A stretch of 64,000 nucleotides of DNA from the NCBI RefSeq assembly GCF_948472415.1, contig NZ_OX419519.1, forward strand, positions 806,001-870,000. The letters are read 5' to 3'. This DNA comes from Kitasatospora fiedleri (GTDB taxonomy: Bacteria > Actinomycetota > Actinomycetes > Streptomycetales > Streptomycetaceae). A model generated the notes under the pieces. That model worked only from the letters and a program-made list of their open reading frames with translations. It was not told the origin of the DNA and did not search any database. The translations under genes and the position numbers were made by a program. This document shows, piece by piece, positions 1 through 14,004 of the stretch; within the stretch, counting starts at the first letter, position 1; each line of letters begins with the position of its first letter.

Positions 1-528
1 CCCGCAGGGGCCGTGGTGGACGACGTCGTACCCGAACTCGCGGAAGTAGTCCGCACCTCGGCCCGACAGCGTGTCGTCGAACCACGGCGGGTTGACCACC
101 GCGATGCGGCGGGCGCCGAGCGCGTCGAAGGCGGCGCGGGCGGCCTTGGTGGTCCCGGTGATCGGCAGGCCCCGGGTGACGGGCAGCAGCCGCTCGTACA
201 GCTCCCGCTCGCCCCGGGCCTTCAACGCGTAGCTGGAGGAGGTGAAGCCCAGGGCGAGCGCGTGCAGCGGGGAGGCCGCCAGCAGTTCCACGGCGTTGTC
301 CAGGTACGGCGCCTGGACGAAGGACAGGATCGGGTCGTACGGGATCTTCTCGTCCATCTCGCCGCCCGCGCGCATGGCGGCGAAGTGGACGCGCGAGCCG
401 TGGACGGACACCGTGGCCGGGGCGACGGCCTGCAGTTCGGCCTCGGGGCCGACGTCCGCGTGCGGCACGACGACGCCGATGCGGGTCGAGGCGTCCCATC
501 CGTCGACGGGCGAAGGGGTGCTGGTCAC
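1..528 (-). CDS. Partial Asp/Glu racemase-superfamily enzyme (arylmalonate decarboxylase/maleate isomerase-like)
   Basis: The first 176 residues are present and the 3' end lies beyond the left edge. The GTG start at 528 follows a GGAGAG ribosome site, 11 bp after the stop of the upstream gene, so the two are co-transcribed. The N-terminus has IGVVVPHADVGPEAEL, the substrate-pocket opening of the maleate isomerase/arylmalonate decarboxylase branch, and later AVVNPPWFDDTL and a conserved G-YF--FGYDV helix. These enzymes use one or two Cys as proton donors or nucleophiles. The first Cys position (normally in a C-T-S-x-S turn) is Phe95 here (G94-F-T-S-S-S-Y100), as if only the second Cys, off the window, were used. 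That resembles arylmalonate decarboxylase, which has Gly at this place. Family call is good; the substrate is unknown. Confidence 0.72.
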   Translation of the reverse strand, partial: MTSTPSPVDGWDASTRIGVVVPHADVGPEAELQAVAPATVSVHGSRVHFAAMRAGGEMDEKIPYDPILSFVQAPYLDNAVELLAASPLHALALGFTSSSYALKARGERELYERLLPVTRGLPITGTTKAARAAFDALGARRIAVVNPPWFDDTLSGRGADYFREFGYDVVHHGPCG

Positions 529-539
529 GGGCTTCTCTC

Positions 540-1214
540 CTACCGGGTGGGGGCGGACTCGTCGGCCAGGCGGCCACCGCTGACGGTGCCGGTGCCGCCG
601 GCGTCGAGGAACTTGGGGTGCTTGCGGCGCATGGTCTCCAGGACGAAGTCGTACGGGACGTCGTCGAAGGCGCCGTGGTCGGTGAGGAACTCCATGGCGC
701 CGCCGCCCCCGTGGGGGTGGTGCAGGCTGTCGCTGAGCCCGTCGAACTCCAGGGCCCGCATCCCGTACAGCTTGCAGAGCAGCTTGTTGAACACCGGGGT
801 GGCCTTGACCCACCTGCCCTCGAGGTGGACCTGGGTGAGACCGTGGAAGAACACGTCGCCGCCGACGTGCTCCAGGAGCCGGGGCGAGGCGAGGTGGTTG
901 CGCACGTCGCCGTACACCAGGCGGGACGGAATGCCCAGGGCGCGCACGGCGGCCGCGTACAGCGCGGACTTGTGCAGGCAGAAACCGGACTTGGTGGTGG
1001 CGGTGTGCGAGGCCCGGAGGCCCTCCCGGGTCAGCGGGGCGCCGTAGACCTCGTAGTCGACGCCGTCGCGCACCGCGTAGTAGAGCTCGACCGCGTTGGT
1101 CCGGCGGTCGGCGGAGCGGTCCTTGACGGCGTGGTCGATGAAGGTCTGCACCTCCTCGGTCTGGTGGTCGAGGAACTCGGTCGGGCGGGTGAGGTGGTCC
1201 ATCGGGTCGGTCAT
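540..1214 (-). CDS. Transglutaminase-like (papain-fold) protein
   Basis: 224 residues. The ATG at 1214 has AGGA 8 nt upstream and lies 17 bp after the acyl-CoA dehydrogenase stop. The transglutaminase core is visible: Cys79 in SGFCLHKS, followed by the hydrophobic helix ALYAAAVRALGIPSRLVYGDV, and His124 in FFHGLTQVHLEGRWVKATP. The third catalytic position, normally Asp in a W-V-x-x-D-P-T motif, reads W-V-K-A-T-P, so the Asp is missing. The C-terminal EFLTDHGAFDDVPYDFV stretch belongs to a bacterial subfamily that shares this feature. Such proteins may be amide-forming or amide-cleaving catalysts. In this operon an acyl transfer from the carrier protein, or hydrolytic release from it, is possible but is only inference. 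Confidence 0.75.
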   Translation of the reverse strand: MTDPMDHLTRPTEFLDHQTEEVQTFIDHAVKDRSADRRTNAVELYYAVRDGVDYEVYGAPLTREGLRASHTATTKSGFCLHKSALYAAAVRALGIPSRLVYGDVRNHLASPRLLEHVGGDVFFHGLTQVHLEGRWVKATPVFNKLLCKLYGMRALEFDGLSDSLHHPHGGGGAMEFLTDHGAFDDVPYDFVLETMRRKHPKFLDAGGTGTVSGGRLADESAPTR

Positions 1215-1231
1215 GTCGGAATTCCTGTCGC

Positions 1232-2350
1232 TCAGAGTCCGAGGAGCATGGCGATGCGGTTGCGCTGGATCTCGGAGGTCCCGGAGTAGATCGTTCCGGC
1301 GATCGAGTTGCGCAGGTCGCGCTCGATCCCGTGCTCGGTGAGCACGCCCCGTCCGCCGTGGATCTGCACCGCGTCCAGCGCGGTCTGCACGTTGGCCTCC
1401 GACACGACGGTCTTGGTGACCGCCAGGTCGAGCGAGGCGTCCTCGTTGCGTTCGACCTTGGCGCCGGTGTCGGTGAGCCACTTCCGGGCGGTCTCCACCC
1501 GGATCTTCATGTCCGCGATCTTGTGGGAGACGCCCTGGTAGGAGCTGATGGGCCGGCCGAACTGGTGGCGCTCCTTGGCGAAGGCGACGGTCTCCTCCAG
1601 GCGCCGGGTCATCTCGCCGAGGGTGAGGGAGAAGCCGAAGAGGACCTCGCGCTTCATCACGTAGTCCAGGACCCGGAACCCGGCGCCCTCCGGGCCGACC
1701 CGCCGGCCGACCGGCACCCGCATGCCGTCGAAGGCGAGCGTGCCGATCGGGCTGGTGCGCAGGCCGATCTTGTCCATCGCGGGGCCCACGGTCAAGCCGG
1801 GGGTGTCGGCGTCGACGAGCAGCGTGGTCAGGCCGAAGGGGCCGGGCTTCCCGGTGCGGACGTAGAGCAGGAAGAGGTCGGCGACCGGAGCGTTGGTGAT
1901 GAACATCTTGTCGCCGGTGACGACGTAGTGGTCCCCGTCGCGGTGGGCGACGGTGGCCAGGTTCACCGCGTCCGACCCGCCGGACCGTTCGGTGATCGCG
2001 TGCGCGGTGATCGCCTCGCCGGAGACGATCCTCGGCAGGTGCTCCTCCTTCAGTTCGTGGCTCGCGAACCGTTGCAGGGGCGTGCCCACGGACACGATCT
2101 GCGTCGAGGCCGAGAACGAGAGGCCCGCGTCCCGGGAGGTGTGGCCCAGTCCCTCCAGGGCACGCATCGTCTCGGTGAGGCTGCGGCCGGCGCCGCCGAA
2201 CTCCGGGGCGAAGGGGACGCGCAGCAGGCCGCTCTCCTGGATCGCCTTCCACTTGCCGTACGGGAAGGCGCCGGCCGCGTCCAGCTCGCGGGTGTCGGCG
2301 TTCAGCTGCTCGGCCCACGGGGCGGTGAGGTGAAAGAGGTCATCGGTCAC
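1232..2350 (-). CDS. Acyl-CoA dehydrogenase family flavoprotein
   Basis: 372 residues, normal length for the family. The GTG at 2350 is preceded by AGGATC. FAD-binding and substrate-loop motifs are present: AITERSGGSDAVN, ITNAPVADLFLLYVRTG, and the C-terminal QIHGGRGVLTEHGIERDLR and SGTSEIQRNRIA. The residue that is the catalytic Glu of medium-chain dehydrogenases (Y-E-G-T) is Ser here (IYSGTSEIQR). A Glu in the helix KREVLFGF sits where isovaleryl- and long-chain dehydrogenases carry their alternative base. Beside a free-standing adenylation enzyme and a carrier protein, it probably oxidises a carrier-bound aminoacyl thioester (as prolyl-carrier dehydrogenases do) rather than a CoA ester; that role is inferred. 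Confidence 0.88.
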   Translation of the reverse strand: MTDDLFHLTAPWAEQLNADTRELDAAGAFPYGKWKAIQESGLLRVPFAPEFGGAGRSLTETMRALEGLGHTSRDAGLSFSASTQIVSVGTPLQRFASHELKEEHLPRIVSGEAITAHAITERSGGSDAVNLATVAHRDGDHYVVTGDKMFITNAPVADLFLLYVRTGKPGPFGLTTLLVDADTPGLTVGPAMDKIGLRTSPIGTLAFDGMRVPVGRRVGPEGAGFRVLDYVMKREVLFGFSLTLGEMTRRLEETVAFAKERHQFGRPISSYQGVSHKIADMKIRVETARKWLTDTGAKVERNEDASLDLAVTKTVVSEANVQTALDAVQIHGGRGVLTEHGIERDLRNSIAGTIYSGTSEIQRNRIAMLLGL

Positions 2351-2538
2351 GGGAGATCCTGGGGTCCGTTTCGGCAGTGGATCGGGCAACAGTGGATCGG
2401 GGTCATGCCATGACGACGGTCGCCGGCTCGCGCGGACGGCCACGGACTCGGACGCGCGCGGCCGGGTGCCCGGCCCGGGCCCCGACGGTGAGCGGGAACC
2501 GGGCCGGGCGGCGCACTCGCGGCCGGAGGGGCGGCGGC

Positions 2539-2913
2539 TCAGTACTGGGAGAACCCGTCCTCGGACAGGGTGTGCTTCTCGTCCCCGTTGATCGGCGGGT
2601 TGAAGATCGACACCAGGTGGAGGTCCTCGTCGGCGGAGGCCAGCAGGTAGTGCGGGTCGTGCTGGTCCAGGACGTAGATGGTGCCCGGCACGATCTTGTG
2701 ACGGGTGCCGTCCTTCTCCACGACCTCGCCCGAGCCGCCGATGCAGTAGCAGGCCTCCAGGTGGTTGCGGTACTGCAGGGCGCTCGAAGTCCCCTTGCGC
2801 ACGAGGGTGTCGGCGACGGCGAAGCCCATGCCGTCGCGCTTGGTCAGGAGCCGGTAGCTCAGACCGTTGCCCCACTCGACTGCGGCGACGTCATCGAGGC
2901 TGCGGGTGAACAT
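2539..2913 (-). CDS. Ectoine synthase-like cupin (orphan EctC homolog)
   Basis: 124 residues, close to EctC length. The ATG at 2913 has AAGGAG 10 nt upstream. The sequence follows EctC closely: an N-terminal MFTRSLDDV, GMGFAVADT, then YRNHLEACYCIGGSGEV, IVPGTIYVLDQHDPHYLLA and the C-terminal FNPPINGDEKH. The Glu of NHLEA and the Tyr and His of TIYVLDQHDPHY match residues used by EctC for metal binding. EctC closes a ring by condensing an amide carbonyl with an amine. No ectA, ectB or ectD is nearby, so this is an orphan EctC-like enzyme, probably acting on an operon-specific substrate that could be carrier-bound. The 98 bp before the carrier-protein stop and the 188 bp after this gene hold no recognisable gene. 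Confidence 0.85.
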   Translation of the reverse strand: MFTRSLDDVAAVEWGNGLSYRLLTKRDGMGFAVADTLVRKGTSSALQYRNHLEACYCIGGSGEVVEKDGTRHKIVPGTIYVLDQHDPHYLLASADEDLHLVSIFNPPINGDEKHTLSEDGFSQY

Positions 2914-3011
2914 CTCTCTGGTTCTCCTTCGGAATCGGGTGGTGCGTCGGTTCGGTGCGGTGCGTGCGGCCGGTCCGGGCGGCTCGGAGGCCGGACCGTC
3001 GGAGCGGTCGC

Positions 3012-3278
3012 TCAGGCGGCTGCGGCCGGGCGGTGGTCCGCGATCATCGCGACGATGGCGTCGATGGTGCGGAAGTCGTCCGGTCCGAAGTCGATGTCGT
3101 CGACCGGCAGCCGGTAGACGGAGGTGAGGTGCCCGAGCAGCTTCACCAGGCCGAGGCTGTCGATGACTCCGGAGTCGAGCAGGTCGTAGTGGCCGGTGAG
3201 GTCCGAGACGTCCTCCCCGGCCAGGAACTGGTCCACGATGTAGGCGCGGACCTCGGCGGCGATGGCGGTGGTGCTCAT
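3012..3278 (-). CDS. Free-standing acyl/peptidyl carrier protein
   Basis: 88 residues. The phosphopantetheine site is Ser41 in LLDSGVIDSLGLVKLLG, followed by the typical helix III region (DFRTIDAIVAMIADH). The ATG at 3278 lies 3 nt after the presumed stop (TGA, 3282-3284) of the adenylation gene, whose last codons also form the ribosome site. This spacing implies translational coupling. The partner is very likely the adenylation enzyme encoded just upstream, with the dehydrogenase and EctC-like protein acting on the loaded thioester. The acidic recognition helix and short length fit a discrete carrier rather than a fragment of a megasynthase. Confidence 0.9.
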   Translation of the reverse strand: MSTTAIAAEVRAYIVDQFLAGEDVSDLTGHYDLLDSGVIDSLGLVKLLGHLTSVYRLPVDDIDFGPDDFRTIDAIVAMIADHRPAAAA

Positions 3279-3281
3279 GCG

Positions 3282-4742
3282 TCACTCCCTTGGTGAGGTT
3301 CTGCTTGATCAGGTTCCGGTCGGGCTTGCCCGTCGAGGTGCGGGGCAGCGGAGCGGCGGTGAGGTGCACCGAGGCCGGGATGGCGTGGCGCGGTAGCTGC
3401 CGGCCCAGGTGGGTGCGCAGCCGGAGGCTGGTGAGGTCGGTGCCGGGGCGCCGGGTGACGTGGGCGTGCAGCCGGACGCCGGCCTGCGGGTCCGGCAGCG
3501 GCACGACCACCGCCTCGGCGACGTCCGGGTGGGCGGTGATGACGTTCTCCACCTCTTGCAGGTTGGTGCGGACGCCCCTGACCTTGACGTGCCAGTCCGC
3601 GCGCCCCTCCAGGAAGTGGAGGCCCTCGGCGGTGCGGGTGACGATGTCGCCGGTGCGGTAGAAGACCCGGCCGTCGAGGTGGGTGAACACCGCGTCGTTC
3701 AGGTCCTGCCGGAGGTAGCCCCCGGTCTGGAACGGCGTGGACACCAGGAGTTCACCGGTGCCCGCCGAGTCGAGGCGCGCGCCCTCGGCGTCGACGACCA
3801 GGGCGTCGGTGCCGCGGATGGGACGGCCGATGGGCATCGGGCCGTCCACGGCGGTGGGATCGACGCGGTGGATGAAGGAGTCGTTGGTCTCCGTGCAGCC
3901 GAACACGTTGTGGAAGGCGGCCCGGGGAACGCCGGTGGGACGCGGCGCAGGAGGTCGACCGGCATGCGGTCACCGGTGAAGACCGCGTGGCGCACGGCGG
4001 CGAAGGTGCCGCCTCCCTCCAGGAGCAGCCGGTACATCATCGGCACGCCCTGGACGAAGGTGACGTCGTGCCGGCTGACCAGCGCGGCGAGGTGCGCGGC
4101 GTCGGTCGCCCGCTGCTGTTCGACCAGGACGACGCTCGATCCGAGCCGGAGGAAGGTCCAGACGTCGAGCAGGGCGAGGTCGAAGTTGAGGGGTGCGTAG
4201 GACAGGGCGGTCTCGTCCGGTGCGAGCGCGAACTCGTCGACGGCCCAGTCGGCGAAGGCGTCGAACCCGGCGGTCTCGATCGGCACGATCTTCGGCGTGC
4301 CGGTCGAGCCGGAGGTGGTCAGCAGCAGCTGGGTCCGTGCCGGGTCCGGCACCGCGAACCCCTCGGCCTCGCTCCGCTCCGCCCGTACCGGCAGCGCGGT
4401 GAGCGCGCCGTCGTCGGCGGCGGTGAGGAGGTGGGAGACGCGGGCCTGGTGCGCCAGGCGTTCGAGTGCCGCGCTGCCCAGGCTCGGTGAGGGCGCGAGG
4501 GCGATGTGGCCCTCGCGGAAGACGGCCAGCAGCAGCGCGATGGTCTGCGGGTTCTTGTGCGCCGGAACGCACACGGTGCTGCCCGCCGGGAGTCGCAGCC
4601 GCGCCAGGTGGGCGCGCAGGCTCCCGGTCAGGTCGTTCAGCCGGCCGTAGGTGACGGCCCGGTCGTCGAAGTGGAGCGCGGTGTGGTGGGGCCGGTTCTC
4701 GCCGTGAGCGGCGACGGTCTCGGCCAGGAGGGACGATGGCAC
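3282..4742 (-). CDS. Free-standing amino-acid adenylation enzyme (AMP ligase), two apparent one-base indels
   Basis: About 486 residues once two indels are corrected. GTG start at 4742 with GAGGAA upstream. Motifs in order: LLTTSGSTGTPKIVP (ATP loop), LNFDLALLDVW with the Asp that binds the alpha-amino group in amino-acid-activating enzymes, FGCTETND, YRTGDIV, VKVRGVRTNLQEVE, and TSTGKPDRN with the catalytic Lys. A G run at 3924-3927 (plus strand) lacks one base: adding it joins RRVPPAF to PRAAFHNVFGCTE. A C run at 3287-3289 has one extra base: removing it ends the protein at NLTKE with TGA just before the carrier-protein ATG. Both corrections together leave exactly 487 codons, so sequencing error is the best explanation. 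It should load an amino acid onto the adjacent carrier; which one cannot be read. Confidence 0.85.
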
Positions 4743-4820
4743 GGCGGGATTCCTCGCGGTCGGCTCAGCCGTCGGGACGAGTGCCGACCGGCTGTTCGAA
4801 TTCGTGCGGTGTCGACGTTG

Positions 4821-4851
4821 AAGTTACCGAACCAACTGGATGCTTGGTCAA
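4821..4851 (-). promoter_or_regulatory. Candidate promoter of the adenylation-enzyme operon
   Basis: On the minus strand a TTGACC (4846-4851) and a TAACTT (4821-4826) are 19 bp apart, about 80 bp upstream of the GTG start. The -35 element lies inside inverted CTTG/CAAG elements (GCTTGGTCAAGC at 4842-4853 and CAAGCATGTACTTG at 4849-4862), where a bound MarR dimer would block RNA polymerase. Confidence 0.4.
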
Positions 4852-4892
4852 GCATGTACTTGGCGAAGTGAGTGTGACGTAGGCCACAAGAG

Positions 4893-4908
4893 TTGCATGT
4901 TCAAGCAA
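4893..4908. promoter_or_regulatory. Candidate MarR operator 1
   Basis: TTGCATGTTCAAGCAA is a partial palindrome (TTG-N6-CAA core). It matches TTGCACGTACAAGCAA at 5527-5542 in 14 of 16 positions. One copy lies upstream of the adenylation operon and the other upstream of the marR-like gene, the arrangement expected for an autoregulated MarR repressor that also controls the operon. Confidence 0.5.
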
Positions 4909-4936
4909 AAACCCCGAACGCGTTCCGCGTTCGGGG
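4907..4936 (-). terminator. Rho-independent terminator of the marR-like gene
   Basis: An 11-bp perfect stem (4912-4922 with 4926-4936, arms CCCCGAACGCG) and a 3-nt loop are followed on the minus strand by TTTTT. It starts 37 bp after the marR-like stop codon. This is the only hairpin in the window with a clear T tract. It separates the regulator transcript from the operon promoter. Confidence 0.85.
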
Positions 4937-4972
4937 CGGGGTCGGGGCGGCCGGCCGCCGGGCCGGCGCGGG

Positions 4973-5422
4973 TCAGACCTGGATGGCGCGCAGGGCCTGG
5001 ACCGTGGGGCCGAGTTCGGGGTCGGCAGTGAAGGTGTTCAGGGCGGACGACAGGACCTCCGCGTAGGTGGCGCGGGCGGCCTGGTAGCGCTGGCGCCCCT
5101 CGTCCGTGATCACGGCGTACACGCCCCGCTTGTCCGACGGACAGAGGTCCTTGAAGGCGAAGCCGGCCGTCTCCAGGCGGCCCACCAGGCGCGTCACCGA
5201 CGACTGCCCCAGGCCGACCTTGTCGGCCAGGTCCTGCATCCGCAGCTCGCTCGTCTTGGAGTGGTGCAGGTGTTCGAGCGAGCGGTACTCCGACAGCCCG
5301 ATCCCGTGCCGCCGCTGCAGCGCCAGGGCCAGTTCCCGCTCCACGTAAGCGTGGAGCGAGAGCACCCGGTTCCATGCGGCCTGGTCGGAGGTGCGCAGGG
5401 GCGCGTGGGATGAAGTTGCCAT
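4973..5422 (-). CDS. MarR-family transcriptional regulator
   Basis: 149 residues, usual MarR length. The ATG at 5422 has CGGAGG 5-6 nt upstream and is preferred to an in-frame start 48 nt further up. Winged-helix features: LALQRRHGIGLSEYRSLEHL, SELRMQDLADKVGLGQSSVTRLVGRLE (recognition helix) and the wing LCPSDKRGVYAVITDEGRQ. MarR proteins are dimeric repressors usually released by a small phenolic or thioester-like ligand. It has its own terminator (4907-4936), so it is a separate transcription unit from the operon at 540-4742. Near-identical motifs on both sides (4893-4908, 5527-5542) suggest that it controls both units. Confidence 0.92.
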   Translation of the reverse strand: MATSSHAPLRTSDQAAWNRVLSLHAYVERELALALQRRHGIGLSEYRSLEHLHHSKTSELRMQDLADKVGLGQSSVTRLVGRLETAGFAFKDLCPSDKRGVYAVITDEGRQRYQAARATYAEVLSSALNTFTADPELGPTVQALRAIQV

Positions 5423-5526
5423 GGGGGCCTCCGTTGCAAGGTGTCGCCTGGCAGAAGAGTACATGCGCATGCAAGATCCTGGCGCCCCGAATTTTCCTTT
5501 CCCGAAGATTTAAGGGCCCATTAGAC

Positions 5527-5542
5527 TTGCACGTACAAGCAA
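5527..5542. promoter_or_regulatory. Candidate MarR operator 2
   Basis: TTGCACGTACAAGCAA lies 105 bp upstream of the marR-like start and differs from the copy at 4893-4908 at two positions. A third, weaker element (CATGCGCATG within 5462-5471) lies between this site and the gene. Confidence 0.5.
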
Positions 5543-5672
5543 TTTCTCTGACCCGATCACCAGCCCGCAAGACCTCGGGAGACCCGCGGCACCGACCGCG
5601 CCGGGTCGTACTCCATCCTTCCGCCGGCCCCGGTCATCACCGACCGTCCGGGGCCCGTCACCAGCGGCCCGA

Positions 5673-5702
5673 ATCCCCTCCGACCGGACGGGTGGAGGGG
5701 AT
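5673..5702 (-). terminator. Hairpin downstream of the PRC-barrel gene
   Basis: A 9-bp perfect inverted repeat, ATCCCCTCC (5673-5681) with GGAGGGGAT (5694-5702), and a 12-nt loop about 80 bp after the PRC-barrel stop. There is no T tract. It fits a GC-rich actinobacterial intrinsic terminator. Confidence 0.5.
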
Positions 5703-5780
5703 CACCGCATGCTCCGGGTCGCACCGAGGGGGGCCGACTCCGTTGCGTCCCAGCGTCCGGATCGAACGCCCCCACGGCCC

Positions 5781-6155
5781 TCAGGGCAGCCGGTTGCCGT
5801 AGAACGGGCCGTAGTAGAGCGCCAGTTCGGCCCGCAGGTCGAGGTCGGCGTGCTGCTCGGCCCGCACCAGCGGCGGGGCGGCCCCGATCTCCTCCTTGGT
5901 GCGGTCGACCGTGATGGTCCGCCGCTCCTCGTCGACCTGGCGGACCGTCACGGCCGGCAGCAGCACCCGGTGGTGGAAGATCCACGGCGCGGTGTCGACC
6001 ACCAGGTACTGCGGTCCGAGGTCCTCCGCCATCCGGTCCACCTTGCCGATCGGCCCGTCGACCGCCTCCACGTGGTACCCGACCAGGTCGCCCACCGGAC
6101 GTCCGGAGGCGTCCCGGTACGCCCACACGTCGAGGTCCTCCCGCTGTTCGCTCAC
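5781..6155 (-). CDS. PRC-barrel domain protein
   Basis: 124 residues. GTG start at 6155 with GGAGG 7 nt upstream. The PRC-barrel fold is visible in DASGRPVGDLVGYHVEAVDGPIGKVDRMAEDLGPQYLVVDTAP and the following beta strands (HRVLLPAVTVRQVDEERRTITVD). Proteins of this kind in actinomycetes are small cytoplasmic stress-associated proteins of unknown biochemistry. It is divergent from the GlsB-like membrane protein gene (204 bp apart), another stress-linked family, so a shared control region is likely. Confidence 0.8.
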   Translation of the reverse strand: MSEQREDLDVWAYRDASGRPVGDLVGYHVEAVDGPIGKVDRMAEDLGPQYLVVDTAPWIFHHRVLLPAVTVRQVDEERRTITVDRTKEEIGAAPPLVRAEQHADLDLRAELALYYGPFYGNRLP

Positions 6156-6358
6156 GCTGGTGCCTCCGCTCGCGCGGCCCCTGGCGGGCGGACCCTCCGC
6201 CGCCGGCCGCCCGGAACGATTGCCCGCCGGAGGTAGTTCCATGCCGCGCCGAACAACCGCGTTCTCCCAGCGAATTCACAGGAATGAGTGGCCGTCGGCC
6301 GGGCATGCGTTCGGCACGACGCCGCTGGGGCCGTCAATCCGTAGGACGAGGAGGAACC

Positions 6359-6619
6359 ATGTCGATCCTTTGGGCGATCATCGCCGGTCTGGTGATCGGT
6401 GTGCTGGCCAAGCTGGTCATCCCCGGGCGGCAGCCGATCCCGCTGTGGCTCACCATCCTGCTCGGCATCGTCGGCGGCCTGATCGGCAACGCCCTGGCGA
6501 GCGCGTTCGGCGTGGCCGACACCAACGGCATCGACTGGATTCGGCACCTCTTCCAGATCGGCGCCGCCGCCGTCCTGATCCTGCTGGTCACCCCGCTGTG
6601 GGCGCGCCGGGGCGCCTGA
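6359..6619 (+). CDS. GlsB/YeaQ/YmgE-family small membrane protein
   Basis: 86 residues, typical of the transglycosylase-associated (GlsB/YeaQ) family. The ATG at 6359 is preceded by GAGGAGG at 5-6 nt. Three hydrophobic segments are visible: ILWAIIAGLVIGVLAKLVIP, LWLTILLGIVGGLIGNAL and LFQIGAAAVLILLVTPLW, with the Gly-rich G-I-V-G-G-x-I-G-N motif of the family. These are integral membrane proteins induced by general stress; the molecular role is not established. Confidence 0.88.
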   Translation: MSILWAIIAGLVIGVLAKLVIPGRQPIPLWLTILLGIVGGLIGNALASAFGVADTNGIDWIRHLFQIGAAAVLILLVTPLWARRGA

Positions 6620-6665
6620 CCCCCGGTCCCACCCCGACGATCGACGGCCCGGCCGCGCCACGGAG

Positions 6666-6696
6666 CGCGCCCGGGCCGTTCGCGTGCCCGGGCGCG
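6666..6696. terminator. Bidirectional GC-rich terminator
   Basis: A 10-bp perfect inverted repeat, CGCGCCCGGG (6666-6675) with CCCGGGCGCG (6687-6696), and an 11-nt loop. It lies in the 99-bp gap between the convergent GlsB-like gene and glmS. Confidence 0.6.
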
Positions 6697-6718
6697 TGCC
6701 CGCACCGGGGGGCGGCCG

Positions 6719-8560
<1,842 letters not shown>

Positions 8561-8606
8561 GACGTGGGCTCCTGTCAGTCGTGAGAGGGCGGCGGGGCCG
8601 TTCCCG

Positions 8607-8912
8607 TCAGCCGTAGACCATCCGCCGCAGCTGACGCGCCGACAGCTGCGGGGCGGCCACCCGGCGGGCGGCCAGCTCCCCGGCGAGGCGGGTGAAGATC
8701 CGGTCGTTGGTCAGACCCCGGGCCTGGAGCTCACCGTGACGGCGGCGGACGTACTCCTCGGTGGTCTCCGCGAAGTACGCCAGCACTTCCGCGACGACCC
8801 GCGCGGCCTCCCCCGGGGCCAGTGGAGTGGTCCGGGCGAGGTGGGCGAGCAGGTCCTCGTGAGGGTGCGGTGAGGCAGGTCCGGATCGGGAGCCTAGGCG
8901 TGAAGTGTCCAT
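8607..8912 (-). CDS. Small protein of unknown function upstream of glmS
   Basis: 101 residues from the ATG at 8912; a longer form from a GTG at 8948 is possible. No domain is recognised. It is predicted helical and highly charged (AARVVAEVLAYFAETTEEYVRRRHGELQARGL, then RLAGELAARR and a C-terminal QLSARQLRRMVYG) with no signal peptide or membrane segment. It is 46 bp upstream of glmS on the same strand and may share its transcript. An 11-bp inverted repeat (8921-8946) covers the likely ribosome-binding region of the short form, so expression may be controlled by mRNA structure. Function unknown. Confidence 0.65.
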   Translation of the reverse strand: MDTSRLGSRSGPASPHPHEDLLAHLARTTPLAPGEAARVVAEVLAYFAETTEEYVRRRHGELQARGLTNDRIFTRLAGELAARRVAAPQLSARQLRRMVYG

Positions 8913-8920
8913 TTGCCAAA

Positions 8921-8946
8921 GATCCTGCCCGAATCCGGGCAGGATC
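8921..8946 (-). promoter_or_regulatory. Perfect 11-bp inverted repeat over the start region of the 8,607-8,912 gene
   Basis: GATCCTGCCCG (8921-8931), loop AATC, then CGGGCAGGATC (8936-8946). On the minus strand the 3' arm carries AGGATC, the best ribosome-site candidate for the ATG at 8912, so folding would hide it. It could instead be an operator or part of the coding sequence if the GTG at 8948 is used. Confidence 0.5.
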
Positions 8947-9212
8947 ACTAGACACGGCGGCCGTACGCGCCCTTCCGGCGGGCGGCGACGGGGCGGAAGG
9001 TGGCGGGAGGTAGCGGGAGGTGGCGGCCGGACCGGTGCCCGGGGCGCACCTATGATGTGGTGCCGCCGTCGGAGGGACGGCGCGCGGGCGGTGTTCGGGT
9101 GATCGTGGCGGGCGGCTGACCCCGTCGGCGGTGTCCCTGTCCCGGTTTCCGGCGGTCACCCCGCAGGATGGGCCGTGCACCGTCCGTGTCGATCACAGGG
9201 GGAACGTCCGTC

Positions 9213-10322
9213 ATGCAACCGCGCGTGTTCGCCGTCGTCACCGCCGTCCTGCTGGCCGTCCTCGGCCTCGGGTCCGTCATGGTGACCGACTGGACGCCGA
9301 AGCCCGCCGCCGCGAGCGCCGCCACCGGCGCGGGCGGCCAGCGCCCCGGCGCCGTGCCCGACGCCGCCGGGTCCCCCTCCCCCACCGGCGACCCGGCGGT
9401 GTGGACCAGGTCGACCCTGCGCAACAAGCTGATGGCCGAGATGGCCGCCACCGACCCCGGCGTCGCCCTCGCCGACCTCGACAAGATCACCAAGGACAAG
9501 CCGTACACGGTGCGGTTCTGCCACCCGATCGCGCACGAGCTCGGGCACGCCGCGGTGGCGCGCTACCAGCAGGACTTCCAGAAGGTGATCTCCTTCCCGC
9601 ACGAGACCTGCGCGGCGGGCTACCTGCACGGCGCGGTCGAGGAGATGCTCGCCAACTCCAAGGACCCGCAGAGCGACATCCTGACCCTGTGCGCGCCCGC
9701 CAACACCGGCCCGTGCATCCACGGCGTCGGCCACGGCATCATGTTCGTCACCAAGCAGGACATCCCGGCCGCCCGCGCGCTGTGCGACAAGTTCCCCAGC
9801 CAGAGCCGCCGGATCACCTGCTCCGAGGGCGTCTTCATGCAGCTGTTCGCGCCCGACGAGGAGGACGAGAAGGCCAAGGCCAACCTCCCCGCCGACAAGC
9901 TGGCCGCCGAGCCGCTCTACCCGTGCCCCGAGCAGCCCGCCCTCTACCAGTCGGCCTGCTTCTTCTACGCGCCGACCTTCTTCCTCTCCTCGCACGACTA
10001 CGCCAACCACCCCGAGGCGTTCGCCCAGGCCCTCCAGTGGTGCCTGAACGCGCAGGCCGCCGGCGGCGGCGAGGACTGCTCGCGGGGCGCCGGCTCGCGC
10101 ACCATGAAGTACAACCTGGACCGCCCGGACTGGGCCGCCCAGCAGTGCGCCACCGCCAAGGACACCTGGCAGCGCAAGGCGTGCACCCAGGGCCTGGTCA
10201 GCTACTACACCGTCAACGACACCAGCGCGGGCGCCGCCGGGCGGCTGTGCGCCCAGATCGGCGACAAGGAGATCCAGGGCTACTGCCGCTCGGCGGGCGG
10301 CCTGTCCACCACCCTGGACTGA
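9213..10322 (+). CDS. Secreted or membrane-anchored Cys-rich protein with HExxH motif
   Basis: 369 residues from the ATG at 9213 (AGGGGGA 9 nt upstream); a start 45 nt earlier would precede the signal. The N-terminus is one hydrophobic segment (VFAVVTAVLLAVLGLGSVMV) followed by an Ala/Pro/Gly-rich stretch, so the protein is exported or anchored. The mature part has about 14 Cys, suggesting disulfides, and repeated His/Gly motifs: FCHPIAHELGHAAVARY, GYLHGAVEEM, CIHGVGHGIMF. HELGH fits a zinc-protease HExxH, but no third ligand is obvious, so protease activity is unproven. I do not recognise the family. The gene is single, ending at a strong bidirectional terminator. Confidence 0.75.
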   Translation: MQPRVFAVVTAVLLAVLGLGSVMVTDWTPKPAAASAATGAGGQRPGAVPDAAGSPSPTGDPAVWTRSTLRNKLMAEMAATDPGVALADLDKITKDKPYTVRFCHPIAHELGHAAVARYQQDFQKVISFPHETCAAGYLHGAVEEMLANSKDPQSDILTLCAPANTGPCIHGVGHGIMFVTKQDIPAARALCDKFPSQSRRITCSEGVFMQLFAPDEEDEKAKANLPADKLAAEPLYPCPEQPALYQSACFFYAPTFFLSSHDYANHPEAFAQALQWCLNAQAAGGGEDCSRGAGSRTMKYNLDRPDWAAQQCATAKDTWQRKACTQGLVSYYTVNDTSAGAAGRLCAQIGDKEIQGYCRSAGGLSTTLD

Positions 10323-10341
10323 GCACCCCGGGCCGAGCACC

Positions 10342-10383
10342 CGGCAGCGCTCCCGGCCGGTCCACCGGCCGGGAGCGCTGCCG
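10342..10383. terminator. Strong bidirectional terminator, 19-bp perfect stem
   Basis: Arms CGGCAGCGCTCCCGGCCGG (10342-10360) and its exact complement (10365-10383) with a TCCA loop, between the convergent secreted-protein gene and the cupin gene. It ends the RiPP-like operon on the minus strand. Confidence 0.88.
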
Positions 10384-10387
10384 CGCG

Positions 10388-10717
10388 TCAGTCGACGATC
10401 AGCAGGGTGGCGCCGTGCTCGGTGCTGGAGCGGTGCGCCTCCCGCTCGTCGGCGACCTGGTAGCTGGCGCCCTGCGGGGTGACCACCACCCGGCCGTCGT
10501 CCAGCGTGGTGGTCAGCTCGCCGCCCAGCACGAACAGCACGTGGCCCTTGCGGCACCAGTGGTCGGCCGCGTAACCGGGGCTGTACTCCACCAGCCGCAC
10601 CCGGACCGCGCCGAAGTGCCGGACCCGCTGGCTGACGGTGCCGCTCTCGCCGGGCCTGACCTCGGCCGGCACCGCGCTCCAGTCCGTCGAGGTGAAGTCG
10701 AACCCGTCCAGTCTCAT
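10388..10717 (-). CDS. DHCW-motif-type cupin protein, last gene of the RiPP-like operon
   Basis: 109 residues, ATG at 10717. Single cupin barrel: SQRVRHFGAVRVRLVEYSPG, then ADHWCRKGHVLFVLGGELTTTLDDGR (the D-H-x-C-like turn that names the family; here D-H-W-C), and EREAHRSSTEHGATLLIVD. Small cupins of this type are enzymes or metal-binding proteins without an assigned reaction. It follows the methyltransferase by 82 bp on the same strand and precedes the operon terminator at 10342-10383. It is therefore likely the last gene of the DUF692 cassette, although the gap is larger than the overlaps among the other genes. Confidence 0.82.
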   Translation of the reverse strand: MRLDGFDFTSTDWSAVPAEVRPGESGTVSQRVRHFGAVRVRLVEYSPGYAADHWCRKGHVLFVLGGELTTTLDDGRVVVTPQGASYQVADEREAHRSSTEHGATLLIVD

Positions 10718-10799
10718 CGCCGCTCCCCGTCCCTCTCCGCTGTTCGACGGCCTGCTCGACGGCCTGCTCGATGGCCTGCTCGGTGGCCTGCTCGACGGC

Positions 10800-11579
10800 C
10801 TACTTGATGGCCAGGATGCCCTCGAAGTGAAGGTACTTCTGGATGGTGGAGATGCTGGTGAAGCCGACCCGGCGCAGCAGTTCGTGGGTCTCGGCGCTGC
10901 GCTGCGGGGCCATCACCGACCGCAGGCTGTGCGCCTTCTGGTAGATCTCGCCGGGGTCGAAGCCGTTGTCGAACTTGAACTCCGCGTAGAGCTGCTGAAC
11001 GATGTCCTGGGTCCGCGAGTCCGGCTCCAGGGTCTTCTCGAACAGCAGCAGGCCGCCGCCCTCGACCAGGCCGTCGCAGACCATCCTCATCGCGGTCTGC
11101 CGGTCGCCCGGCGGCAGGAACTGCAGCGTGTAGTACATGATGACGGCGTTCGCGCCGCTGTAGTCGACCGAGAGCATGTCGCCCTGGCGGATCGTCACGT
11201 TCTCCAGCTCGCGGCAGCGCTGGCGGGCCACCCGCACCATGTCCGCCTCGATGTCGAAGCCGATCAGCGACACGTCCTTGCAGCAGTCCTTCGCGGCGAT
11301 CTGCGCGAGCAGGGTGCCGGTGGAGCAGCCGACGTCGATGATCAGGCCGCCGCGCCGGCTGAAGAACTCCACGCACTGGCTGATCAGGGCGTGGCCCTCG
11401 GCGTACAGCGGGACGCTCTTGCTGACGTGGTTGTCGAACTTCTGCGGGGTGCCGCCGGAGAAGCTCCAGCGGGTGTCCACGGGCACGATGCCGTCGCCGA
11501 CGTCCAGCAGGTCGGACGTCTCCCGCAGCACGGCCAGGTCCGCCGTCAACGCGGGGAGGCTGTCGGTCGCTTCACTCAC
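10800..11579 (-). CDS. CmoA-like SAM-dependent methyltransferase
   Basis: 259 residues. The GTG at 11579 overlaps the exporter stop (GTGA). Class I fold: LIIDVGCSTGTLLAQIA (SAM loop), LIGFDIEADMV, and YTLQFLPPGDRQTAM. It aligns along its length with CmoA, the carboxy-SAM synthase of tRNA wobble modification: FDNHVSKSVPLYAEGHALI, FKFDNGFDPGEIYQKAHSLRSVM, ETHELLRRVGF. CmoA has Arg after Q-K in that last region (QKRS); here it is QKAH, so the carboxylate-binding function may be lost and a plain SAM methyl transfer is as likely. There is no CmoB partner nearby. Its place in the operon points to modification of the peptide or its product. Confidence 0.85.
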   Translation of the reverse strand: MSEATDSLPALTADLAVLRETSDLLDVGDGIVPVDTRWSFSGGTPQKFDNHVSKSVPLYAEGHALISQCVEFFSRRGGLIIDVGCSTGTLLAQIAAKDCCKDVSLIGFDIEADMVRVARQRCRELENVTIRQGDMLSVDYSGANAVIMYYTLQFLPPGDRQTAMRMVCDGLVEGGGLLLFEKTLEPDSRTQDIVQQLYAEFKFDNGFDPGEIYQKAHSLRSVMAPQRSAETHELLRRVGFTSISTIQKYLHFEGILAIK

Positions 11580-12952
11580 GGCGTCTCCTGGAGGCGGTCG
11601 GTCCCCTCGGCCGCCGCCCACGCCGCGGCCTGCGGCGGGCCCGGGGGCCGGGGGTCGGTCGGGGCGGGGATCTCCAGTCCGAGCGCGGCGGACCGGGTGA
11701 GCACCAGGAACGCCAGCACCGCGAGGGCGACGGCGCCGAGGGCGAAGGTGGAGCGCAGGCCGAACCAGCCGACGCACAGGCCCGCCGTCATCGCGCCGAC
11801 CGGGAGCGAGCCCCAGGCCAGCATCCGGTAGACGCTGGTCACCCGGCCGAGCAGTTCCTTCGGGATGGTCGACTGCCGCAGGGCCAGGCTGACCGAGCTG
11901 AACTGCACCACCGCGAAGCTCGAACAGCTCAGCGCCAGCACGGTCAGCAGCCGGCTGCTGGCCAGCAGCATCACCGTCTGGTCGACGGCCTGCAGGCCGA
12001 CCGCGAGGGCCAGCGCCCGGGTGACGCCCAGCCGCTCGGCGATCCGGCCGGAGACCAGCCCGGCGAACACCCCGCCCGCCGCCGCGCAGGACAGCAGCAG
12101 GCCGAACCCGGCCTTCCCCAGGTGCAGCACGTCGTGCGCGTACAGCACCATCACGGCGTTGGTGGCGCCGGTGAAGAAGTTGATGGTCGCGGAGGAGGCC
12201 GACAGGAAGCGCAGCGTGGACTCGCCCCACATCCAGCGCAGCCCCGCGCCCGCGTCCCGCAGCACCCCGCGCACCCCGGGCCGTTGACCCGCCGCCGCGG
12301 GGGCGGCCTGCTCGGCGGGGGCGGTGCGCAGCCCGGCGAAGGCCAGCAGCACCAGGACGCCGGAGAGGCCGAACGAGACGCCGTCCACCACGAACGGCAG
12401 CGAGACCGCGGCGGCGAACAGCAGCCCGCCCAGGGCCGGACCGAGGAACTCGGTGCCCAGCGTCTCGGCCGCCATCAGCCGCCCGTTGGCGCGCACCAGC
12501 CGCTCGGCCGGGACGAGGGCCGGCAGCGTGGTCTGGACGGCGGTGCGGAACACCGTGTCCGCGGCGGCCAGCAGGAAGAGGGTGACCAGCAGCAGCGGAA
12601 TCCGGGCCACCCCGGCCAGCAGCGAGAGCACCACCAGCAGCAGCAGGGCGCTGCGGGTGAAGTCCAGGCCCGCCATCAGGCGGCGGCGGTTCATCCGGTC
12701 GACGGCGACGCCGCCGACCACGCCGAGCAGCAGGTACGGCAGGGTGACGGCGACCTGCGCACCGGCCACCACGGTCGGGTTGCTGTTCAACGAGAGCACC
12801 AGCAGCGGCCCGGCGGTCAGCAGCACGCCGTCGCCGACGCAGGAGACCAGGCTCGCCGCCCACAGCAGGCCGTAGCGGCCGGAGAGACCCGAGCGGCCGG
12901 AGCGGCCGGCGTGGTCCGGGCCGTCGGCGCGGGCGGGGCGGACGCTCAGCAC
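11576..12952 (-). CDS. MFS exporter of the DUF692 cassette
   Basis: 458 residues with the hydrophobicity of a 12-helix major facilitator. The GTG at 12952 overlaps the partner-protein stop by 7 nt. Family signs: SLVSCVGDGVLLTAGPLLVL (helix 1), loop VDRMNRRRLMAGLDF between helices 2 and 3, DTVFRTAVQTTLPALVPAERLVRANGRLMAAETLG (typical of drug/macrolide-type exporters of the MefA-like branch), and a second half beginning about LRFLSASSATINFFTGATNAVMVLYA. By position it should export the modified peptide product. Its stop overlaps the methyltransferase start, so stoichiometry is coupled. Confidence 0.92.
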   Translation of the reverse strand: MLSVRPARADGPDHAGRSGRSGLSGRYGLLWAASLVSCVGDGVLLTAGPLLVLSLNSNPTVVAGAQVAVTLPYLLLGVVGGVAVDRMNRRRLMAGLDFTRSALLLLVVLSLLAGVARIPLLLVTLFLLAAADTVFRTAVQTTLPALVPAERLVRANGRLMAAETLGTEFLGPALGGLLFAAAVSLPFVVDGVSFGLSGVLVLLAFAGLRTAPAEQAAPAAAGQRPGVRGVLRDAGAGLRWMWGESTLRFLSASSATINFFTGATNAVMVLYAHDVLHLGKAGFGLLLSCAAAGGVFAGLVSGRIAERLGVTRALALAVGLQAVDQTVMLLASSRLLTVLALSCSSFAVVQFSSVSLALRQSTIPKELLGRVTSVYRMLAWGSLPVGAMTAGLCVGWFGLRSTFALGAVALAVLAFLVLTRSAALGLEIPAPTDPRPPGPPQAAAWAAAEGTDRLQETP

Positions 12953-14004
12953 GGGGCCACGTCCAGCAGGCCCCACTCGGCCAGCGAGCCGAGCAGGCCG
13001 CGCAGGCCCGCGTCGGCGGGGTCGAGTCCGACGCCGGCGGCGATCTCGGCCAGCGGCAGCCCGGCGGCGAGGCCCTCGGCCACCCGGGCGGCGGGGGCGC
13101 CGATGCCGGTCAGGGCGTACAGCTCGGCCGACCCGTCGAGGCGGACCAGCACCGCCCCGGACCGCTCGGGGGCCCGGTCGAGCCCGCCCCCGACCGGATC
13201 GGCGAGCCACCCCAGGACGTCGCGCTCCCACCGGACGACCGCCCCGCGCCCGGTCCAGCGGTACTCCCCGCCACCTGCCCCCGCCGGGGCCGCCCCGGCC
13301 GGGGCACCGGGCTCCGGAGCGGGACCGGCCGAAGCGTCGCCCGCCGCGACTGGACCGGCCAAGTCACCGCCCGCCGGGGCGGATTCGGCCGAAGAACCAC
13401 CCCGCGAGGCGGACTCGGCCGAAGCGCCGGGCTCCGGAGCGGGACCGGCCGAAGCGTCGCCCGCCGCGACTGGCTCGGCCAAGTCGTCGTCCACCGGGGC
13501 GGGTTCGGCCGGAGCGCCGCCCGCCGGGGCCGTCCCCGGCGTCGCGCTGCGGGCGATCAGTTCGGCGGCGGTGCGTTCCAGTCGCAGTACGTCGCGCAGG
13601 GCGGCGGTGGAGGGCCCGGTGGGGAGGGTGCGGTCGAGGCGGTGCAGGTACTCGGCGGTGACGGTGTAGACGTACGGGCCGCGGTCGGCCCAGCCGGTGG
13701 CCGTCACGTAGTCGGTGACCAGGGCGTCGGGGTCGTGGCCGAGCTGGCGCAGGGCGCGGGCGGTCAGCGGGGCGCCCTCGGCGACGGCGGCGCGGGTGAC
13801 GCGCAGCAGGCGGTAGCGGTAGGCGTCGACGGCCCACTGCACGCCGGGGCCGTTCTCGGCGTACACGGCGGCGATCTCGGTCTCGGCCGGGGTGAGCCCG
13901 AGGTCGGCGGCGCGGGCCCGGACGTCGCCCGCGACGACGGCGTCGGCCAGCGCGGGTTCGCGCAGCACGCGCCGCCACAGCCGCCAGGTGTGTTCGGCCT
14001 TCAC
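12946..14004 (-). CDS. DUF692 partner protein with periodic linker and PqqD-like C-terminus
   Basis: 352 residues. The GTG at 14004 overlaps the DUF692 stop (GTGA). The N-terminal ~145 residues are helical (WRLWRRVLREPALADAV, VYAENGPGVQWAVDAYRYRLLRV) and correspond in position to MbnC/TglI-type partners of DUF692 enzymes. Then comes an Ala/Pro/Glu/Ser linker with a 10-residue period and a 40-residue duplication. The last ~95 residues (GAVLVRLDGSAELYALTGIGAPAARV, LPLAEIAAGVGLDPA, LLGSLAEWGLLDV) look like a PqqD-type RiPP recognition element, which would bind the leader of the precursor. Assignment as partner rests mainly on context and the fused recognition-like domain. Confidence 0.7.
   Translation of the reverse strand: MKAEHTWRLWRRVLREPALADAVVAGDVRARAADLGLTPAETEIAAVYAENGPGVQWAVDAYRYRLLRVTRAAVAEGAPLTARALRQLGHDPDALVTDYVTATGWADRGPYVYTVTAEYLHRLDRTLPTGPSTAALRDVLRLERTAAELIARSATPGTAPAGGAPAEPAPVDDDLAEPVAAGDASAGPAPEPGASAESASRGGSSAESAPAGGDLAGPVAAGDASAGPAPEPGAPAGAAPAGAGGGEYRWTGRGAVVRWERDVLGWLADPVGGGLDRAPERSGAVLVRLDGSAELYALTGIGAPAARVAEGLAAGLPLAEIAAGVGLDPADAGLRGLLGSLAEWGLLDVAPC
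13327..13520 (-). repeat. 30-bp/120-bp tandem repeat in the partner-protein linker
   Basis: The element CGGCC-GAAG recurs every 30 bp (about 13327, 13356, 13386, 13416, 13446, 13476, 13506). The block ending ...GCTCCGGAGC-GGGACCGGCC-GAAGCGTCGC is duplicated 120 bp apart. It encodes the period-10 linker (E/D-x-A-x-P-A-x-G-x). The reading frame is kept throughout, so the repeat is coding. Confidence 0.85.

Follow-up and report, generated by a model that had tools for sequence, protein, structure and literature searches.

Showdomycin biosynthesis is the described route closest to the operon analysed here. As laid out in the showdomycin section of PMC8724604, the cyclase SdmE acts on L-glutamine to give 2-amino-1-pyrroline-5-carboxylate, the stand-alone adenylation enzyme SdmC activates this amidine and loads it onto the carrier SdmD, oxidation and hydrolysis follow on the carrier, and SdmA and SdmB attach and dephosphorylate ribose. 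The same cyclic amidine (ADPC) is formed from glutamine in a side reaction of ectoine synthase EctC, according to a passage of PMC4795551. Here we examined a window of 64,000 nucleotides of the Kitasatospora fiedleri genome (bases 806001-870000 of contig 1; genome size, 8.07 Mb), whose left end holds an operon with enzymes of the same kinds. By analogy with showdomycin, this cluster very probably follows the first half of that route and makes a reactive five-membered ring from glutamine.

Six minus-strand genes, confirmed by open reading frames and by Pfam and NCBIfam profiles, run from position 4742 to the left edge of the window. The Pfam matches among them are AMP-binding, Ectoine_synth, acyl-CoA dehydrogenase (three domains), Transglut_core and Amdase. 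An earlier note on this DNA had named these families correctly; the adenylation gene, however, is not one frame in this assembly, and the racemase-like gene continues past the window. The latter ends at L006 17719, 281 bases left of the edge (L006 coordinates cover the DNA left of the window; a window position is the L006 position minus 18000). The six genes are as follows.

3275..4742, minus strand: stand-alone adenylation enzyme (AMP-binding matches in both halves; frame broken at ~3924 and ~3287)
3012..3278, minus strand: carrier protein, 88 aa, with the phosphopantetheine motif DSGVIDSLG (Ser41-Leu42; PP-binding, 20.5 bits)
2539..2913, minus strand: EctC-like cupin, a predicted glutamine cyclase (Ectoine_synth, 1e-33; solved EctC, 7e-27)
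1232..2350, minus strand: acyl-CoA-dehydrogenase-like flavoprotein (ACD) of the prolyl-carrier-dehydrogenase type (4irn match; RedW model)
540..1214, minus strand: transglutaminase-like protein (TG), predicted thioester hydrolase for release (Transglut_core, 3.2e-14)
1..528, minus strand: first part of a protein (AMD) of the arylmalonate decarboxylase (AMDase)/maleate isomerase superfamily (Pfam Amdase, 3e-14)

Relatives were collected by scanning the genomes of 84,980 species with an alignment of the adenylation (A) domain, and the best 80 of 222 loci were retained. These comprised type I (33 loci), type II ('tryptophan-type', 28 loci), type III (15 loci) and four others; AMD identity helped to define types I and III. 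The adenylation enzyme, carrier, cupin, ACD and TG are referred to below as the core.

Enzymes of the core and the AMDase-like protein

The A-domain motif NFDLALLDVW holds the Asp of alpha-amino-group binding at the GrsA Asp235 position, as the earlier note had recognised; the pocket positions, Asp235 included, are those we take to be numbered after GrsA. This residue is D in every listed pattern (78 A-domain sequences), and, whether the type is I, II or III, all listed patterns have D, L, L, Q and G at positions 235, 236, 239, 278 and 301, which suggests that the predicted substrate is common to the three types. The carrier scores slightly below the Pfam PP-binding cut-off of 20.8 bits, and Ser41-Leu42 of its phosphopantetheine site is invariant in 68 carriers.

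The residues of the cupin were mapped by alignment with a solved EctC and from the residue descriptions in part of PMC4795551. The iron ligands (Glu-57, Tyr-85 and His-93 of SaEctC) are kept in 73/73 homologues, and the cupin shares with ectoine synthase the family and the positions Thr-40, Tyr-52, His-55, Glu-115 and His-117. It differs from EctC at the Trp-21 position, where the 71 residues shown (73 homologues) are Leu, Thr or Val with no Trp among them, and at the Cys-105 position, usually occupied by Ser in types I and III. Ectoine biosynthesis was ruled out by the changed Trp-21 and by the absence of an EctA/EctB-like gene from the operon. The cluster cupin is the only EctC homologue in the genome.

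The best solved match of the ACD is the prolyl-ACP dehydrogenase 4irn (1.4e-72). All three acyl-CoA dehydrogenase Pfam domains are present, and Glu235, found in 77 of 78 homologues, is presumably the catalytic Glu of the prolyl/isovaleryl type. The closest family is that of the L-prolyl-carrier dehydrogenases RedW, PigA and AnaB of pyrrole pathways, with which the catalytic Glu would be shared. The ACD nevertheless reaches only about half of the RedW NCBIfam equivalog cut-off (334.7 against 650 bits), and one oxidation of a cyclic amidine would be expected of it rather than two of proline. Formation of a pyrrole from proline is disfavoured by the presence of a cyclase. In the TG, Cys79 and His124 are near-invariant (97% or more of 61 homologues), with Thr139 or Asn143 as candidates for the third residue; a comparison of the TG with solved structures gave no match at E 0.01.

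The AlphaFold2 model of the AMD protein (pLDDT 85.8, pTM 0.88) points to the arylmalonate decarboxylase/maleate isomerase superfamily fold (Foldseek, 7.3e-12). The closest structure is maleate isomerase Iso 4fq5 (Z 27.5, rmsd 2.3, 232 residues); arylmalonate decarboxylase follows at Z ~25.8, and the matches overall have Z 25-27.5 over ~230 residues. Thr75, Ser76 and Cys188 have roles in AMDase. In a profile alignment, Thr75 and Ser76 are matched by Thr96 and Ser97 in type I AMD proteins, Gly74 corresponds to Phe95 and Cys188 to Gly209, the last two replacements being invariant in 39 sequences. By this alignment, both catalytic Cys positions of the superfamily have been lost, and a racemase working with two cysteines was ruled out by Phe95 and Gly209 at the Cys places. 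Conserved polar residues include His23, Asp25, Glu29, Glu31, His43, Arg46, Ser97, Thr231, Asn233 and Gln234. The protein does not reach the NCBIfam cut-off for EutA of ectoine utilisation (73.9 against 318 bits). L061 was left out of the AMD alignments for a stop within the coordinates used, and the frame-broken L025 copy was left out of alignment A4.

An AMD of at least 63% identity occurs in 19 of 394 Streptomycetaceae genomes, and for three of these 19 (the window's own genome, G011 and G053) the cluster around it was inspected. Seven of the 394 genomes encode AMD-like proteins that share ~46-55% identity with that of the window (in G338, in pieces). The core was not present at the five of these places that were fetched (L105-L109), and at L105 the AMD-like gene adjoins, on a reading of its sequence, a flavoprotein-monooxygenase-like gene. 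A wider role of AMD-like proteins beyond the core clusters is possible.

Cluster types around the core

All 33 type I loci hold the core and an AMD-like gene, and they also carry genes for MarR (32), a TadA/guanine-deaminase-like protein (DEAM; 31), any SMR efflux protein (32) and DsbA (23). The strict order A-carrier-EctC-ACD-TG-AMD is found in 31 of the 33, and in the remaining two, from Actinokineospora, the first five genes stand in order with AMD further on. The order is thus conserved beyond chance, which bears out the expectation that the gene set would recur elsewhere. Type I extends over Streptomyces, Kitasatospora, Kribbella, Lentzea and Actinokineospora. Within the genus Kitasatospora, 9 of 70 genomes gave a TG match, one of them weak, and all seven strong loci besides the window's own hold the whole core. 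L033 and L045 start near contig ends and DEAM lies near the locus end in L051-L059 (8 of 9 without a DsbA match), so that absences in these loci may reflect truncation. In L055 (15137-19512; Streptomyces rubiginosohelvolus), genes read from sequence as phosphopantetheinyl transferase, AfsA-like, TetR, HAD and short-chain dehydrogenase lie between AMD and SMR, suggesting butyrolactone control.

Type III also holds the core and an AMD-like gene throughout (15/15), and has no MarR, deaminase, DsbA or SMR gene. Queries from L060, whose C-glycosynthase matches PF04227 at 8e-94, were used to search for C-glycosynthase-like, HAD phosphatase-like and MFS-like genes, which had played no part in typing. 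All three were present in 15/15 type III loci and in 1/33 type I loci, and in 0, 0 and 3, respectively, of 28 type II loci. The single type I locus is the hybrid L026 of S. triticisoli (885-13905), in which type I genes and showdomycin-type PsuG, HAD, MFS and AMD genes surround one intact core; its second TG and ACD are matches of only 68 and 59 residues beside the C-glycosynthase gene, and its gene content looks as if both sets used one core. L025 (2300-11676; Streptomyces) has A, carrier and resistance genes with showdomycin-type PsuG, HAD, MFS and AMD genes, and no EctC, ACD or TG match. At the same-species locus L024, the HAD phosphatase and MFS genes of the type III kind were not found beside the core.

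Type II loci contain the core, whole or in part, with TrpD-like (25 of 28), TrpA-like (25) and TrpFC-like (26) genes; 12 have a TG match and none has an AMD-like gene. In examples such as L018, L020, L022, L069, L078 (Roseomonas), L081 (Azospirillum) and L088, the core lies among diverged TrpD/TrpA/TrpFC-like genes, sometimes with a TrpB-like gene as well. A separate housekeeping trpD was also present in the three Kitasatospora type II genomes checked. An aminopyrrole taking the place of anthranilate and leading to a tryptophan isostere is predicted from this gene content, and the tryptophan-like setting may exceed type I in novelty. L090, L084 and L098 match no type. L019 and L021 (Kitasatospora) have the core, L021 together with genes read as TrpB-like, EamA-type transporter and ATP-grasp-like, and possibly represent a fourth tailoring set.

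A tree of A, EctC and ACD (75 loci, 980 columns) placed five type III loci within a supported (1.0) type I clade that includes the sister strain, and joined the two type I loci of Actinokineospora to two loci of type II (0.997). Type labels change 7 times on this tree, compared with a mean of 34.8 and a minimum of 28 after shuffling. Given this nesting and the 7 label changes, the phylogeny argues that tailoring sets swap around one core. AMD follows the tailoring set: the AMD of the nested type III loci is 70-100% like that of L060 and that of other type III loci 50-63%, while the AMD in the nested loci is 28-31% like the type I AMD.

Operator-like sites and the genes left of the window

The marR and A genes are each preceded by a palindrome, the two being nearly identical, and the DNA on both sides of the six genes contains the following features.

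4973..5422, minus strand: MarR-family regulator, 149 aa (Pfam MarR_2/MarR on the same-species copy; Cys94)
5526..5539, no strand assigned: operator-like palindrome CTTGTACGTGCAAG upstream of marR (14-mer site search)
4912..4936, minus strand: probable terminator separating marR from the A gene (11-base inverted repeat, perfect, with a T-run after it)
4892..4904, minus strand: operator-like palindrome upstream of the biosynthetic operon (0 mismatches to CTTGNACATRCAA in the genome scan)
L006 17432-16212, left of the window: IS701-like gene, next after the AMD gene
L006 16028-16040, left of the window: perfect TTGTACATACAAG palindrome
L006 from 15948, left of the window: TadA/guanine-deaminase-like gene (DEAM)
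L006 15464-14805, left of the window: DsbA/FrnE-like gene
Left of the window, beyond the DsbA/FrnE-like gene: SMR efflux gene (the sister locus holds two SMR genes)

The leftward extension proposed in the earlier note thus yielded the end of the AMD gene and the IS701-like, deaminase, DsbA/FrnE-like and SMR genes; the frameshifts in the A gene and the co-regulated genes beyond 1-4742 had not been covered there. A whole-genome scan for CTTGNACATRCAA allowing at most one mismatch returned 14 matches, four of them (at three places) within the cluster and eight of the remainder being one repeated word. Across type I loci, a 14-mer site, counted in upstream regions at 10 or more of 14 letters, precedes MarR in 28/33, A in 18/33, DEAM in 17/30 and SMR1 in 10/29. 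The counts at the internal genes are 1/34 for ACD, 0/34 for TG and 1/32 for AMD, with 2/24 for DsbA and 0/27 for SMR2; shuffled sequence meets the threshold in ~1-8% of cases, mostly 4-5%. The CTTGTACATGCAAG sites are candidate MarR operators, and we infer that the cluster is MarR-controlled. Linked by these palindromes, the co-regulated cluster as predicted is larger than the six genes and includes MarR, IS701-like, deaminase, DsbA/FrnE-like and SMR genes. Cys94 of MarR is invariant in 30/30 type I MarR proteins.

The HAE and PCxxC zinc motif of DEAM is invariant in 30/30 sequences, and its closest solved relative is a bacterial guanine deaminase (1wkq, 3.8e-17). DEAM scores far under the TadA equivalog cut-off (55.6 against 150 bits) and sits in a biosynthetic or resistance cluster. 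Hydrolysis of an amidine-like ring amino group by this protein fits either purpose. DEAM was found in 0/15 type III and 0/28 type II loci.

Of the 33 type I loci, 18 have a linked gene for an IS701-family transposase-like protein. Its only near-invariant polar residues in 20 homologues are Asp22, Asp199 and Ser355, so few that the protein may have been domesticated instead of representing an insertion.

Predicted pathway and comparison with showdomycin

The explanation that we favour overall, and consider reasonably probable from sequence and from the showdomycin analogy, is a MarR-controlled cluster that parallels showdomycin biosynthesis through its first half and then diverges. The cupin would close L-glutamine into the cyclic amidine 2-amino-1-pyrroline-5-carboxylate by condensing its side-chain amide with its alpha-amine, the stand-alone adenylation enzyme would put this amidine on the carrier, the flavoprotein would take two hydrogens to leave a carrier-bound 2-aminopyrrole, and the TG, as a Cys-His thioester hydrolase, would release 2-aminopyrrole-5-carboxylate. 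These four steps are predicted from homology, from conserved residues and from the sharing of the core with showdomycin-type clusters, and by analogy they are well supported. In types I, II and III alike, the core very probably yields one and the same aminopyrrole acid.

The C-glycosynthase being absent, the Cys-less AMD would probably decarboxylate the acid; it is proposed as a decarboxylase because it is present where the carboxylate should go (type I and the showdomycin type) and absent from type II. The guanine-deaminase-like protein would then hydrolyse the amidine nitrogen, and the resulting hydroxypyrrole or pyrrolinone would lead to a small maleimide-type electrophile. Export of the product would fall to the SMR pair, the DsbA/FrnE-like protein would serve thiol protection, and MarR, through its invariant Cys, would sense the product or an intermediate and induce both operons. 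A pyrrolinone or maleimide-type end product can be put forward only tentatively. More speculative, and on balance unlikely, is the full scheme in which type I is an undescribed aminopyrrole branch yielding a free non-glycosylated electrophile from glutamine, the Cys-less AMDs are new aminopyrrole-carboxylate decarboxylases (acting on the bare ring in type I and on the ribosylated ring in the showdomycin type), the deaminase finishes the ring and the MarR Cys senses the electrophile.

Several observations weigh against the pathway as drawn. With no catalytic Cys at either position, decarboxylation by AMD is a guess from its place in the pathway, and in the showdomycin section of PMC8724604 the AMDase-like protein of showdomycin-type clusters goes unmentioned and the later decarboxylation, deamination and oxidation are non-enzymatic. 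DEAM is grouped with efflux and DsbA genes and may belong to resistance rather than biosynthesis. At the place where Asp may complete a canonical triad the TG has Thr139, and no TG match was obtained in 16 of 28 type II loci, so release may go otherwise. The 80 loci are the best-scoring ones and not a random sample, their typing relied partly on AMD identity and Trp-like genes, and the equation of type III with the showdomycin type rests on gene content. Finally, the A gene has a broken frame in the present assembly.

The same core could instead deliver a cationic aminopyrrole or cyclic amidine as the product, exported as a cation by the SMR pair and destroyed by the deaminase in self-resistance. 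The deaminase, DsbA and SMR genes indeed form a separate operon with its own operator-like site, and both SMR proteins score best with the model of SugE, which exports guanidinium, although under its cut-off (51.9 and 78.1 of 126 bits). Deaminase in 31 of 33 type I loci, however, fits either role, and the AMDase-like protein of the biosynthetic operon would be left without a job; we regard a cationic product as rather unlikely. The earlier note had left open whether the TG releases or transfers the acyl group. Transglutaminase-like proteins can transfer carrier-bound acyl groups, as AdmF does for andrimid, and noformycin and anthelvencin are amides; a TG acting as amide synthase, with an amine as acceptor for the acyl group of ADPC or of the aminopyrrole, would give a product of that kind. 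The constancy of the TG, directly after the ACD-like gene in 33/33 type I loci and present in 15/15 type III loci, can be cited for such a role. The operon, however, has no amine-forming or second adenylation gene, and the same TG occurs in C-glycosynthase clusters, for which the showdomycin section of PMC8724604 gives hydrolysis. An amide product is thus quite improbable; release is retained, and the TG probably only frees the acid.

Cyclisation by the cupin and oxidation on the carrier, as the earlier note had it, remain the most likely course, except that cyclisation probably precedes loading. Loading of another amino acid such as proline, with cyclisation on the carrier, would agree with an ACD closest to prolyl-carrier dehydrogenases, but proline needs no cyclase and in the route of PMC8724604, as far as its showdomycin section goes, glutamine is cyclised before loading; we give this order very little weight. 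Equally small is the probability that the locus is dead in this strain, with A a pseudogene in a decaying cluster. Three frame breaks would speak for decay; two of them interrupt the A gene and the third lies at the deaminase gene end. Relative to the same-species locus L016, however, the A gene is a single base short at each of its breaks, in a homopolymer run of 5 at ~3924 and of 4 at ~3287, and the deaminase gene end is likewise one base short in a homopolymer run of 5. The A gene of L016 is intact (489 aa, its stop overlapping the carrier start), the cluster proteins of the two strains are ~94-99% identical, and the A gene identical to the same-species copy is that of Kitasatospora sp. SolWspMP-SS2h. 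Since the breaks are single bases in homopolymer runs and the same-species copy is intact, assembly errors are the likeliest explanation.

Returning to the favoured explanation, the showdomycin sdm cluster and type III share with the window's cluster the adenylation enzyme, carrier, cyclase, flavoprotein oxidation and release, and type III also has an AMDase-like protein, ~30% identical and of a different subfamily from that of type I. The earlier view that the combination is unknown from described pathways is therefore not sustained, given the showdomycin route as presented in that part of PMC8724604 and the core in 15/15 type III loci. In place of the PF04227 C-glycosynthase, HAD phosphatase and MFS exporter of the showdomycin type, the window's cluster has MarR, guanine-deaminase-like, DsbA/FrnE-like and two SMR genes. 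No PF04227 (Indigoidine_A) match was found genome-wide, which rules out showdomycin itself as the product of this strain, and with no sugar-attaching genes a different small-molecule product is expected. Literature searches, covering open-licence papers, turned up no account of the type I cluster.

A formerly unassigned operon, spread over at least five actinobacterial genera, thereby acquires a pathway that can be tested and whose first half is known, and a candidate role, as a decarboxylase independent of the two known Cys positions, can be proposed for the AMDase-like protein of the showdomycin type. The core is known from showdomycin; its type I setting, with AMD and MarR/deaminase/SMR genes and without C-glycosynthase, is apparently undescribed. 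One predicted glutamine-to-aminopyrrole core would thus be combined with three tailoring sets, namely C-glycosylation as in showdomycin, the type I set and the tryptophan-like set.

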